A DNA stretch of 34,214 bases from an uncultured bacterium (GTDB taxonomy: Bacteria > Verrucomicrobiota > Lentisphaeria > Victivallales > UBA1829): assembly GCA_949297765.1 (NCBI GenBank), contig CASFTV010000037.1, positions 1 through 34,214 on the forward strand. Direction: 5' to 3'. Position 1 is the first letter of the stretch; each line of letters begins with the position of its first letter. This document shows, one piece after another, positions 2 through 3,322 of the stretch. A program made the position numbers and the translations under genes. The notes beneath the pieces were generated by a model. The model saw nothing but the letters and a program-made list of their open reading frames with translations. It was not told where the DNA came from and made no database searches.

Positions 2-202
2 GACATGAACGACTGCAAGATTTCAGGCAGCAGCCTGACATGGTCGAATGGAGTTCATTCGGGAACTCTGACGCTGAATGGCGTGAGCTGGGATTCCGTA
101 AAATTCTACTGTGCCGCGAACGGCGACGGAGATCTTGCCCAGATCGCGGAGTACAATGATCTGAAGAACAAGGGAGCGTTCGCGGCGGCATCGTCGCACT
201 GA
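2..202 (+). CDS. C-terminal part of an unrecognised protein, cut by the window edge
   Basis: An open frame enters from the left edge and stops at TGA (200-202). A Met codon at position 5 exists, but the frame is already open before it and no ribosome binding site can be seen, so this is probably the tail of a longer protein. The visible residues are rich in Ser, Thr, Gly and Asn with alternating hydrophobics (SLTWSNG, TLTLNGVSW, KFYC), which suggests beta strands. Two Cys are present, and the chain ends in a polar helix-like stretch and AAASSH. I do not recognise a family. It lies 84 bases upstream of the small peptide gene on the same strand, so it could belong to the same transcript, but nothing in the sequence proves that. 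Confidence 0.5.
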   Translation, partial: DMNDCKISGSSLTWSNGVHSGTLTLNGVSWDSVKFYCAANGDGDLAQIAEYNDLKNKGAFAAASSH

Positions 203-286: not shown

Positions 287-376
287 ATGGAAAAGTTTTC
301 CTATGAGGCTCCGGAGATGACCGAACTTTCCGCCGCGGTTGCGGAAGCGGCTGTCATTCCGACGCCTGTGTCGTAA
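287..376 (+). CDS. putative 29-residue RiPP precursor peptide
   Basis: This ORF encodes 29 residues, with a good ribosome binding site (GAAAGGA, 271-277) nine bases before ATG and a TAA stop at 374-376. The N-terminal half contains FSYEAPEMTEL. Tyr6, Pro9 and Met11 fit the YxxPxL leader motif that PqqD/B1-type recognition elements bind in lasso-peptide systems (established for that family). The second half is Ala-rich with two A-x-A stretches (residues 17-19 and 19-21) and ends in VIPTPVS, so the last residue is Ser29. Downstream genes encode a PqqD-like protein, an HprK-like kinase and an S26-type peptidase, matching a precursor role. By analogy with paeninodin, where an HprK-like kinase phosphorylates the C-terminal Ser, Ser29 is the likely kinase target (inference). 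No Cys is present. A chance ORF cannot be fully excluded, but motif, ribosome binding site, terminator and context agree. Confidence 0.6.
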   Translation: MEKFSYEAPEMTELSAAVAEAAVIPTPVS

Positions 377-393
377 GCTGAAAATTTTTCAGC
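377..393 (+). other. hairpin touching the peptide stop codon
   Basis: GCTGAAAA and TTTTCAGC form a perfect 8-base inverted repeat with a 1-base centre, starting directly after the TAA of the peptide gene. It may protect the 3' end of the short peptide mRNA. It precedes a second, stronger hairpin. Confidence 0.45.
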
Positions 394-399
394 GGAAGA

Positions 400-446
400 A
401 ACCGGAACTCTTCCATGTATCATCGGGAGAGTCCCGGTTTTGTTTT
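400..446 (+). terminator. intrinsic terminator between peptide and enzyme genes
   Basis: AACCGGAACTCTTCC (400-414) pairs with GGGAGAGTCCCGGTT (425-439) over 15 positions, with one A-C mismatch and one G-U pair, and a 10-base loop. TTTTGTTTT follows. This is a strong rho-independent terminator. It would leave an abundant short peptide message and let only readthrough reach the kinase, PqqD and peptidase genes, an arrangement often seen in RiPP clusters. I found no clear separate promoter in the 50 bases between it and the kinase start. Confidence 0.8.
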
Positions 447-495
447 CAGAAAGAAATAAAAAACTGTTATTTTTTTAGCTTGGGAATCATACGGG

Positions 496-1413
496 ATGGT
501 ATTTGAATTGTCGTTCACCACTGCGGATGGCAGTGTAATCCGCATCGGCGCTCTGGACGAGAGGGCTCGCGGAGTTCTTGAGACGACTGCCCGCATTCAT
601 GAAATTCCTCCGCCGGAAGAACTTCCGGAAAGAAGCGAATCCTGCCGGGTTATCCTTTTTTCGGAACGGAACGGACTGCCGCCCGGCGTTCCTGCCAAGC
701 CGGTCCTGACGATTTCCGGACTGGAGATTTATCGTTCCGGGAATCTGTTTTATTATGGTCTTTCCGAATTGCCCCCGCCCACCTGGGAGGAGAGTTTCCG
801 CTATCGCCTTCCTCTGCTGAATGCCATGATGGCGGCAACTCTTGAGGACGGAAAAAGTATTCTGTTTCACGGCTGTCTCCTTCTGAACGATGCGGGGGAG
901 GGGATCGTTCTGACCGGGGAAAGCGAGGTCGGGAAATCCACGACGTTCCGCCGCTGGATCGCCGCCGGAGGGACGGGACTCTGTGATGATCTGATGATTC
1001 TGACGGTTCTTCCGTCGGCGGGAGGAGGATGCCGCTTTTGCGCGCAGCCGCTTCCGACCTGGAGTCGCTGTCTGAGGGAAGGGGTGCCTGCGGAAGTTCT
1101 GCGCTATCCGCTCGGGAAGGCTGTGAATGTCCGTCATATTCTCTGGCTTACGCGATCCGCAACGGACCGGGAGGAGATCCTGCCGGTCCCTGTGCAGAAA
1201 TGGCACGGGCAGCTGCTTGCCGCCTGCAATCAGCATCTGCTTTTTTCCCAGTACGCTCTGAGCGTAGAGGAACGGCGGAATCTGGTGATGGCCTACTGGA
1301 AGATCGTGGATGAAATCGACAGGATATATCGCCCGCTCGCTCTTGCGGCACATCTGAAAGGTGACCTGCGGGAGACATGGAAGCAACTGGAATCGTATGG
1401 GAGAAAAGAATGA
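496..1413 (+). CDS. HPr-kinase-like ATPase, candidate peptide kinase
   Basis: The product is 305 residues. A P-loop GESEVGKST lies at residues 141-149, followed by GTGLCDDLMIL with the Asp pair at 164-165. That spacing and the DD motif are typical of the HprK kinase fold. The first 130 residues are not similar to the HPr-binding region I know, so it is unlikely to be the true HPr kinase/phosphorylase of sugar control. HprK-like proteins encoded beside PqqD proteins occur in lasso-peptide clusters such as paeninodin, where they phosphorylate the precursor, and in SynChlorMet-type cassettes. Its stop overlaps the PqqD start (ATGA), so the two are translationally coupled. No strong ribosome binding site precedes the ATG at 496 (ACGGG only). 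Likely role: ATP-dependent phosphorylation of the 29-residue peptide in the cytoplasm (inference). Confidence 0.75.
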   Translation: MVFELSFTTADGSVIRIGALDERARGVLETTARIHEIPPPEELPERSESCRVILFSERNGLPPGVPAKPVLTISGLEIYRSGNLFYYGLSELPPPTWEESFRYRLPLLNAMMAATLEDGKSILFHGCLLLNDAGEGIVLTGESEVGKSTTFRRWIAAGGTGLCDDLMILTVLPSAGGGCRFCAQPLPTWSRCLREGVPAEVLRYPLGKAVNVRHILWLTRSATDREEILPVPVQKWHGQLLAACNQHLLFSQYALSVEERRNLVMAYWKIVDEIDRIYRPLALAAHLKGDLRETWKQLESYGRKE

Positions 1414-1664
1414 AAATCAATCCGCTGGCAATCTATCGCGAGGAATTTGACAAAAGTGCAATTCTGTTCCGTCCGGACACGGGGGAAAGTTTCATGCTGA
1501 ACCGGAGCGCTTCGTTCATCTGGAAGCAGCTGGAGAAAGGCTCCGGAAGGGAAGAGATCCTTGCGGCACTCGCCGAGGCCTGCGGCGGACTGCCCCCGAC
1601 GGCGGAACGGGATCTGGATACGTTTCTTGCCCGTTTGAAGGAGAAGGGATATCTCGCGGAATGA
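1410..1664 (+). CDS. PqqD-family RiPP recognition element protein
   Basis: The product is 84 residues, the usual size of free-standing PqqD proteins. The pattern is typical of the family: an N-terminal strand region, DTGESFMLNRSASFIWKQLE in which a beta hairpin is followed by the N-x-(S/T)-A-x-x-(I/V)-W helix, then an acidic helix and a final LARLKEKGYL helix ending the winged fold. Such proteins bind RiPP leader peptides and present them to enzymes. The start at 1410 is chosen over the in-frame ATG at 1377 because GGGAG lies just upstream and because it gives the ATGA overlap with the kinase stop. Its own stop overlaps the next start (ATGA at 1661-1664). Expected partner: the YxxP leader of the small peptide. 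Confidence 0.85.
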   Translation: MKINPLAIYREEFDKSAILFRPDTGESFMLNRSASFIWKQLEKGSGREEILAALAEACGGLPPTAERDLDTFLARLKEKGYLAE

Positions 1665-3322
1665 ATGCGGAGTCTCTGCCGTCCTGTCTGGTGGCCGGTT
1701 TCAGCATGCAGCCTCTGCTGCAGAACGGAGACCGTGTTTTCCTCCAGCCGGTGAAACACTGTGAACTTCTGCCCGGAGATGTCATTGTCTTTCAGCGCGG
1801 AGGCAGAAACATCGTCCACCGGGTGATCCGGACCGGCGATGTGATTCAGACTCAGGGAGATGCCAATCCGCTGCCCGACGAGCCGCTGATGCCGGAGACG
1901 GAGACTTCTCTCTGTCTGAGTTTTGAACACGGAAACGTGCGGACTCCATTGAAGCGCGGTGACAGGGGCCTCGCGGAATTCCGCCGGAATCAGCGTCTCC
2001 GGAAAAGGCGGGAGCTTCTGCTGAAAATCGCCCGCTTTCTCTGTCGGATTGCTCCGTTCAAGCTGCGGGCGGAAGAACTGGAACAGGCGGAGTTTGACTC
2101 TCTCCGGGTCTTCTATTGGCGAAAACATCCGGTCGCCTGCGAACAGAACGGCGAATGGCGCTGGAACAGAATCCGTTATGCCTGTTTCATCAAACGGGCG
2201 CATCGACAGAAACTGCGGGAGAACGAACGAAAAGAGATCCTCTTTGCGGAAACACTTTTCCGCCTGCTCGGCGAGATGGTGTTCGGCGATCCCCGGAAAT
2301 TTTTCTCGGAACAGTCCCCGGAGATGCAGGAGGAACTCTGCCGGAGAGGACGGATGCAGGCGCTTTCCCCGATCTTTTATTATCTGCTGACGGATCTGCT
2401 TCCTCAAACATGGTTCCCTGTATTCAAACAGGATTTCTATGCGCAGGCGCATTTTGATTTTTTCTATTCCGACGCCCTGAAAAAGATTTACGGGGAGTTT
2501 TCCTCTCTCGGTACGCCTTTCATTCCGCTTAAGGGGAGTTTCTTCGCCTACGAGGTTTATCCGCATCCGGCGCTCCGGCTCCGGCGGGATCAGGATATTC
2601 TGCTCCGCCGCTCGGAGGCGGAAAAGGTCTTCCGGCATCTTCAGGAGAGCGGCTGGAATTCCAAAGAGCAGCGGCATCCGTTCTTCAAACGGCTGCATCT
2701 GCCGACTCTGATCCGGGAAGGGCGTCCTGCACTTGAACTGCACTGGCATATTCTGAAAAACCGTTTGTTCTTTGATCCGGAAACGCTTTGGTCTGAAGCA
2801 TCTGTTCCGATTCCCGGTGAACCGCTTCGCCGGAATCTCTGTCCGGAAGCGCATTATCTGCTGACGGTCTACAATCTCTATTTCGACCGCTGGCAGTTCG
2901 CCTGCCGCTCTCTGCTGGATCTTGCCTTCCTGCAGAAGAAGTACCGTCCGGATCCGGAGCGGATTGCGGAATTGAACCGGAAATGGAATCTGAATCTTGA
3001 TCTTGGACTCTGCTATCGCCTGTTTCCGTCCATGTTCCCGGAGGAGCAGCGTCTGTTCCCGTCGGTGACCGCGGTTCCGGACCGGGCGCGGTTCGCGGTT
3101 TACCGCTTGAGTTTGACGGAGTATCCGGAAGCCGTTGTTCCGTTACTGAGCCGGTCCGGCGGACCGCTTCCGGCGATCCCCGAGAAACGGAAGCGCCGCG
3201 GGATCTTCCGCCGGGCCCGAAGACGGACCCCCGAAACAGAAAAGGCTCTCCGCCTGCTGGAGCGTCTCCTGCCCGGTGCGATGGAACTGAAGCAGAATTA
3301 CCGGAAAAACAAGGACAAATAG
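1661..3322 (+). CDS. fusion of soluble S26-type signal peptidase and nucleotidyltransferase
   Basis: The product is 553 residues. Residues 10-75 match S26 peptidases: GFSMQPLLQNGD with nucleophile Ser15, IVHRVI with His53 in place of the bacterial Lys (as in SipW, archaeal and ER enzymes), and GDANPLPDEP with Asp73. No membrane segment precedes Ser15, so this would be a cytoplasmic peptidase. From about residue 170 to the end it resembles the nucleotidyltransferase family PF14907: FIPLKGSFFAYEVYP (Lys291-Gly292-Ser293), RLRRDQDILL with metal-ligand Asp310 and Asp312, then LELHWHI. PF14907-like proteins accompany HprK-like kinases in some lasso clusters such as pseudomycoidin, where they act on the phosphate added by the kinase. 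The fusion suggests one protein both trims the leader and decorates the phosphorylated peptide (inference). The stop is TAG. The last 60 residues are basic. Confidence 0.75.
   Translation: MNAESLPSCLVAGFSMQPLLQNGDRVFLQPVKHCELLPGDVIVFQRGGRNIVHRVIRTGDVIQTQGDANPLPDEPLMPETETSLCLSFEHGNVRTPLKRGDRGLAEFRRNQRLRKRRELLLKIARFLCRIAPFKLRAEELEQAEFDSLRVFYWRKHPVACEQNGEWRWNRIRYACFIKRAHRQKLRENERKEILFAETLFRLLGEMVFGDPRKFFSEQSPEMQEELCRRGRMQALSPIFYYLLTDLLPQTWFPVFKQDFYAQAHFDFFYSDALKKIYGEFSSLGTPFIPLKGSFFAYEVYPHPALRLRRDQDILLRRSEAEKVFRHLQESGWNSKEQRHPFFKRLHLPTLIREGRPALELHWHILKNRLFFDPETLWSEASVPIPGEPLRRNLCPEAHYLLTVYNLYFDRWQFACRSLLDLAFLQKKYRPDPERIAELNRKWNLNLDLGLCYRLFPSMFPEEQRLFPSVTAVPDRARFAVYRLSLTEYPEAVVPLLSRSGGPLPAIPEKRKRRGIFRRARRRTPETEKALRLLERLLPGAMELKQNYRKNKDK

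Follow-up and report, generated by a model that had tools for sequence, protein, structure and literature searches.

A four-gene cassette at the left end of a contig from an uncultured Lentisphaerota bacterium raises the question of what kind of peptide it makes, and whether it acts alone. The window analysed here is this complete contig of 34,214 nucleotides, and the cassette (287-3322) consists, in order, of a gene for a 29-residue peptide, a hairpin, and genes for a kinase, a PqqD-like protein and a protein in which an S26 peptidase domain is fused to a PF14907 nucleotidyltransferase domain. The last three genes overlap by ATGA at each of their two junctions. The original prediction had described a YxxP peptide, a terminator and three ATGA-coupled genes, a description that is accurate, with coordinates and domain matches in agreement. 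It had also called the cassette minimal, and the picture of a free-standing unit has to be given up because the precursor is tied to the gene of a giant protein. We propose that the cassette is probably a pathway for a ribosomally synthesized and post-translationally modified peptide (RiPP) of the linear polyphosphorylated peptide (LPP) type, described from Paenibacillus alginolyticus (Popov et al., 2026; PMC13381572), and that its precursor is produced along with a giant surface protein of the secreted kind. The features concerned are the following.

2..201, forward strand: 3' end ('CTD-B') of a giant protein gene, 66 codons and stop, truncated where the contig begins; 73% identity to the C-terminal end of L032:3-1991, same end at G000:C41
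287..376, forward strand: YxxPxM RiPP-type precursor peptide, 29 residues; three near copies, many YxxP relatives
386..446, forward strand: hairpin resembling a rho-independent terminator, 3' of the peptide gene; from scan and folding, also after the C41, L032 and L033 copies
496..1413, forward strand: HprK-like peptide kinase (ScmC/LppK-like); invariant His125, Lys147 (P-loop), Asp164 and Asp165
1410..1664, forward strand: PqqD-like discrete RiPP recognition element (RRE); PF05402 over its cut-off
1661..3322, forward strand: archaeal-type S26 signal-peptidase domain fused to a PF14907 nucleotidyltransferase domain, 553 residues; domain matches, Ser15, His52 and Asp67

The precursor gene is paired with a giant protein gene

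The last 66 codons of a giant protein, with the C-terminal end ...WDSVKFYCAANGDG...AFAAASSH, open the window, and this gene end, overlooked in the original prediction, belongs to the same arrangement as the cassette. The protein whose C-terminus it matches (L032:3-1991) is an RTX-repeat protein from one of two genomes of another genus in the same family (loci L032 and L033), and the relatives of the giant protein in both loci carry RTX calcium-binding repeats (PF00353 in L032), the one in L033 being at least 2370 residues long. A search of the bacterium's own genome revealed a second copy of the peptide gene at C41:29379-29465, 93% identical, with the same giant-protein end upstream and the same hairpin downstream; no kinase lies beside this C41 pair, which is probably served by the single enzyme set of the window as well. 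The window contig (G000:C37) and C41 both break within the giant gene, which is expected because of its repeats. When 36 genomes of the family were searched for the C-terminal end found in the window, four clear genes and one weak match were recovered, and all four clear genes (4/4) were followed by a peptide gene.

The pairing extends to giant proteins with a different end. In 40 further loci, many better-scoring kinases are preceded by large proteins rich in Gly, Asn, Thr and Ser, mostly of 1200-3600 residues, and YxxP peptides lie in the space between. A second C-terminal domain, ~100 residues long, is common to most of these large proteins (alignment A4). This second domain was modelled as a beta domain with a predicted local distance difference test score (pLDDT) of 91. 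No confident Foldseek match was obtained for it (best E 0.31), and in a second look (VIA) the ends of beta-helix proteins ranked first (7jvi, Z 5.7; pertactin, Z 4.9), so that a resemblance of the model to a beta-helix end cap is only suggestive.

Searching with this ~100-residue domain alone, blind to the peptides, returned 55 distinct proteins with enough downstream sequence. A peptide was scored when an open reading frame (ORF) of 20-85 residues with Y..P.[LIVMF] occurred within 300 nucleotides downstream; gene calls were greedy ORF picks and some listed neighbours are artefacts, and the counts rest on ORFs matched by hidden Markov models and on this one fixed rule. A YxxP peptide gene followed 34 of the 55 domain proteins, at a median gap of ~22 nucleotides; among 451 control genes 15 passed, including at least four real cases (Fisher P = 7e-27, not corrected for relatedness). 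Pairing was found for 14 of 18 proteins near a kinase and for 20 of the 37 proteins with no kinase seen nearby, where for some of the 37 a flank of 1-2 kb was read and a kinase further off is possible. The association of YxxP precursors with giant secreted-type proteins is new and statistically strong.

These data bear on whether the peptide is simply an independent LPP-like signal or antimicrobial peptide, its gene neighbouring the giant genes only because both are part of a surface or biofilm way of life; in Bacillota, LPPs are found in capsule loci in much this manner. LPPs do co-localise with capsule genes, with no known role (PMC13381572), and two loci of the order have the look of such a system: L099 has a precursor, a kinase and a PqqD gene without a giant neighbour, and L113 (G075:C539, 1240-1928) has four precursor genes in tandem that share one leader (YVAPKMVVVSRRVVNT-like) but vary in their tails, upstream of a kinase and a PqqD gene, which resemble a peptide natural product, with no giant gene on its short contig. 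However, precursors lie directly behind giant proteins even where no kinase was seen, including the enzyme-less C41 copy, and generic clustering of loci does not predict this direct pairing. We consider an independent peptide unlikely, and still the most serious of the rival explanations.

The 29-residue peptide has the pattern of a RiPP precursor

The product of 287-376 is MEKFSYEAPEMTELSAAVAEAAVIPTPVS, which contains the RRE-binding motif YxxPx[L/V/I/M] as YEAPEM. The window peptide is 79-93% identical to peptides at three other places. A search for the four-gene order and an alignment of the short ORFs, both suggested with the original prediction, recovered the same order of peptide, kinase, PqqD and fusion genes in L032 and L033 (identity to the window of 81% and 79% for the peptide, 59-60% for the kinase, 79% for PqqD and 58-60% for the fusion protein) and showed Y6, P9 and E13 to be invariant in eight aligned precursors, whereas a terminal Ser was invariant only in the four closest copies.

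Given its shortness and the adjoining strong hairpin, the ORF might have been a product of chance or have had a regulatory role. The hairpin has a U-rich tail (scan, 422-438) and folds over 386-446 at -24.1 kcal/mol (z -4.2), and it recurs downstream of all four known copies of the peptide gene. Against a chance or regulatory ORF, in the first 22 codons all pairs of these four copies differ by 0-2 replacement and 4-9 silent changes, the silent share of random single changes being ~23%; the motif is common to many relatives, and when the intergenic stretch was shuffled 20,000 times, an ORF with Y..P.[LIVMF].E arose in 12 of the shuffled sequences. We therefore regard this explanation as having next to nothing in its favour.

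Following an invariant VAEAA, the tails of the four copies diverge (VIPTPVS, AIITPVS, NILNPAVVVVS and NTLAPVVS), and the last Ser is the sole hydroxyl residue kept in all of them. A constant leader with a variable tail looks like the pattern of a RiPP precursor, and for the window peptide we predict a leader of residues 1-21/22 and a core (A)VIPTPVS, with Ser29 as the putative modification site. In 37 of 39 listed distant precursor ORFs, a list that includes one obviously spurious ORF, a Gly is followed by Ser or Thr within 3 residues, ~14-21 residues past the Tyr, a position that appears to be near the phosphorylated core Ser3 of LPPs.

The peptide could also be read as a docking element, in which case the kinase, peptidase or nucleotidyltransferase would really act on the giant protein, for instance on the C-terminal domain. 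The tight one-to-one pairing of the genes and the conserved C-terminal domains of the giant proteins would suit such a role, but the precursor tails vary like RiPP cores and have their Ser/Thr about equally far from the leader motif, and the kinases of LPPs and paeninodin act on the peptide itself (PMC13381572, PMC9266682). A docking role is accordingly quite improbable.

The enzymes are probably those of a linear, kinase-modified peptide

The kinase matches TIGR04249 (ScmC) at 40 bits, below the cut-off of 125, and gives weak HprK matches. Its AlphaFold model (pLDDT 85) has HprK and phosphoenolpyruvate carboxykinase folds as best Foldseek matches, and His125, Lys147, Asp164 and Asp165 are invariant in seven aligned kinases. 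The kinases of lasso peptides such as paeninodin have a conserved His-Lys-Asp-Asp set that is needed for catalysis (PMC9266682). The PqqD protein matches PF05402 at 59.8 bits, over the cut-off, and TIGR04248 (ScmD) at 61 bits, below the cut-off of 100; compared with the PDB, the profile of its family found the lasso RRE TbiB1 (1.6e-10), TfuB1 and, more weakly at 5e-4, the LppB-leader complex 9x8z. The fusion protein matches PF14907 at 105 bits, over the cut-off, and the archaeal-type signal peptidase model TIGR02228 at 49.9 bits (cut-off 51.85), with Ser15, His52 and Asp67 of the S26 domain invariant. The same fusion occurs in L032 and L033, and it suggests a coupling of leader removal to decoration of the phosphate.

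Matches to the kinase profile were found in 47 of the 137 genomes of the order. A wider scan of genome contigs with this profile gave one locus only, the P-loop pattern being too common; this locus, L090 from Lentisphaerae bacterium SIG80, has the same genes as L104 and places the order in Lentisphaerota. In G022 (L044/L159), a kinase remnant carries a stop codon, and behind a giant-protein gene a degraded YxxP-like stretch precedes kinase-like sequence; here kinase and precursor appear to have decayed side by side and to have been lost together. Locus L034 (7016-10962) has a glycosyltransferase-like gene between the kinase and PqqD genes, which would fit glycosylation of the phosphate, and the S26-PF14907 match of that genome carries an in-frame TGA.

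Is the cassette, then, what is left of a lasso, SynChlorMet or radical-SAM cluster, with a cyclase or radical SAM enzyme acting from elsewhere in the genome? The best named matches are the ScmC and ScmD models, related kinases in other genera adjoin radical SAM-like genes (L111, L116), and one full Asn-synthase-type protein is encoded in the genome. The last of these, the sole full-length PF00733 match, is on contig C1, far from the cassette, and nowhere in the genome did a lasso B2 protease (PF13471) exceed the cut-off. Neither a cyclase nor a radical SAM gene was seen in the locus on the contig or in the L032 and L033 loci, and the precursors of the window clade lack Cys. The absence of a lasso cyclase, B2 protease and radical SAM enzyme from the locus, as originally claimed, is thus borne out, and a remnant of this kind is very improbable. 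We rejected assignment to a lasso cluster on the PF13471 and PF00733 results, and membership in SynChlorMet on the ScmC and ScmD scores and the lack of a radical SAM gene in the locus.

A separate group of loci (L106, L108, L111, L112, L116, L173 and L178-L181) carries HlyB-HlyD, often PqqD, S26 and a radical SAM-like gene, followed by a kinase; some of these genomes have precursors that contain Cys (KGESCYIDC...DDICP). Such loci are possibly a radical-SAM-modified variant.

Type I secretion is partly linked to the cassette

Directly downstream of the S26-PF14907 gene, L032 encodes an HlyB-type ATP-binding cassette (ABC) transporter and an HlyD protein (TIGR01843 over its cut-off, TIGR01846 below), and L033 has the same two ORFs; HlyB/HlyD genes adjoin several cassettes. 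The window bacterium has an HlyB/HlyD pair alone on another contig (L188, G000:C10:51241-55294), and an HlyD similar to that of C10 is present in three genomes of the same genus, two of them without a kinase match. Type I secretion is the likely route for the RTX-type giant proteins, judging from these gene contents. One locus of genome G130, in which no kinase was found, combines PqqD, an MsbA-like ABC gene, S26 and HlyB/HlyD (L205, G130:C177).

A proposed pathway and what weighs against it

From this arrangement we infer the chemistry, export route and function of the pathway as follows. Gene order and the hairpin suggest that the giant-protein and peptide genes would be co-transcribed up to the terminator at ~430, with the downstream enzymes expressed by read-through or from a promoter of their own. 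The PqqD-like RRE would bind the YxxPxM leader, as indicated by the conserved Y6, P9 and E13 and by the precedent of LppB and TbiB1. The HprK-like kinase would then phosphorylate a tail Ser: in the window peptide this is most likely Ser29 at the C-terminus, and in most relatives the site is perhaps the Ser/Thr just after the Gly, near the LPP position. The S26 domain may cut near A19-E20-A21/A22 to release the leader, so that ~7-12 residues would remain in the four close copies, and the fused PF14907 domain may further decorate the phosphate, by analogy with PsmN of pseudomycoidin. The product would be exported and act with the giant protein outside the cell, the giant protein itself probably leaving by type I secretion.

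A more tentative extension, which we hold with less than even confidence, is that phosphorylated linear RiPPs could be dedicated partners of giant surface proteins: each giant protein would have its own precursor, one enzyme set would be shared, and the giant protein would depend on the modified peptide for its export, anchoring or activity. If true, this would give phosphorylated RiPPs a concrete role in the assembly or control of surface proteins of bacteria, and new precursors could be found behind giant repeat-protein genes.

Several observations weigh against the proposed pathway. The giant protein of the window is visible only as 66 codons, and the ScmC, ScmD and signal-peptidase models all score below their own cut-offs. 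No recognisable peptide follows 21 of the 55 domain proteins, and in G130 there is none behind the counted, weakly matching proteins. The terminal Ser is invariant in the four closest copies only, and of the 39 distant precursor ORFs listed, only 2 have Ser as their last residue. We therefore rejected a C-terminal Ser as a general hallmark, and the phosphorylation of Ser29 put forward in the original prediction stays a prediction. HlyD relatives occur in 92 of the 137 genomes of the order, often without a kinase, and the type I system of the bacterium itself, on C10, is not adjacent to the cassette, its HlyD being 42% identical; the link to type I secretion is for these reasons only partial. 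Type I secretion as an exclusive partner was rejected on the spread of HlyD and on the many such loci without a nearby RRE.

Other genes of the window

Positions 3348-34010 encode several pseudopilin-like proteins, regulators resembling AraC, LacI and GntR, and large proteins in which carbohydrate-binding or cellulase-like domains occur. These look like loci for polysaccharide use, unrelated to the cassette.

Comparison with known systems

SynChlorMet shares with the cassette the nearest named models for the kinase and PqqD proteins (ScmC, TIGR04249; ScmD, TIGR04248). Paeninodin and pseudomycoidin come with an HprK-like kinase bearing His-Lys-Asp-Asp, a PF14907 protein, an RRE and a C-terminal Ser, and PsmN of pseudomycoidin has been linked to hexose addition (PMC9266682). 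Unlike these, the window locus has no macrolactam cyclase or B2 protease, YxxP replaces WxxP, and the peptidase is of the S26 type. Type I secretion of giant RTX adhesins is comparable in the RTX repeats of the related giant proteins and in the HlyB and HlyD genes of the L032 and L033 loci, but many giant proteins here carry the other C-terminal domain, which resembles a beta-helix end cap. Our literature searches brought up no case in which a RiPP-type peptide pathway accompanies such secretion systems.

The closest system is that of the LPPs, which consists of the YxxP precursor LppA, the kinase LppK, the RRE LppB, the archaeal-type signal-peptidase-like LppS, the nucleoside triphosphate (NTP) transferase LppN and the MsbA-like exporter LppD. 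Experiments showed kinase-dependent multiple phosphorylation of core Ser3 by LppK, and cleavage of the leader by LppS assisted by LppB. LPPs were reported as restricted to Bacillota and co-localised with capsule genes, their role being left open (all from PMC13381572). The cassette has a YxxP precursor, a discrete RRE, an HprK-like kinase, an archaeal-type signal-peptidase-like peptidase and a PF14907 NTP transferase, also without a cyclase. It differs in that the host is outside Bacillota, the peptidase and NTP transferase are fused, the tail is much shorter and ends in Ser, and the linkage is to giant secreted-type proteins instead of capsule loci. The window leader, YEAPEMTELSAAVAEAA, departs from the full LPP leader consensus YxxPxVLxHQxIxFETxxS, and no MsbA-like exporter lies beside the cassette in the contig, L032 and L033 having HlyB/HlyD instead; an MsbA-like ABC gene occurs in L049. 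Because the full consensus and the MsbA-like exporter were not found and membership of the RRE in the LPP clade is only putative, we do not file the cassette as a member of the LPPs, to which it appears close in its parts.

The original view, in which a kinase modifies a linear RiPP, an RRE takes part and an S26-type peptidase cuts off the leader, is supported and lies close to the LPP pathway, while the minimal enzyme set as such is of a kind already published. What is new relative to the LPPs, themselves described in 2026 without a known role, is the S26-PF14907 fusion, the occurrence of an LPP-like enzyme set in another phylum, and the giant-protein partner.

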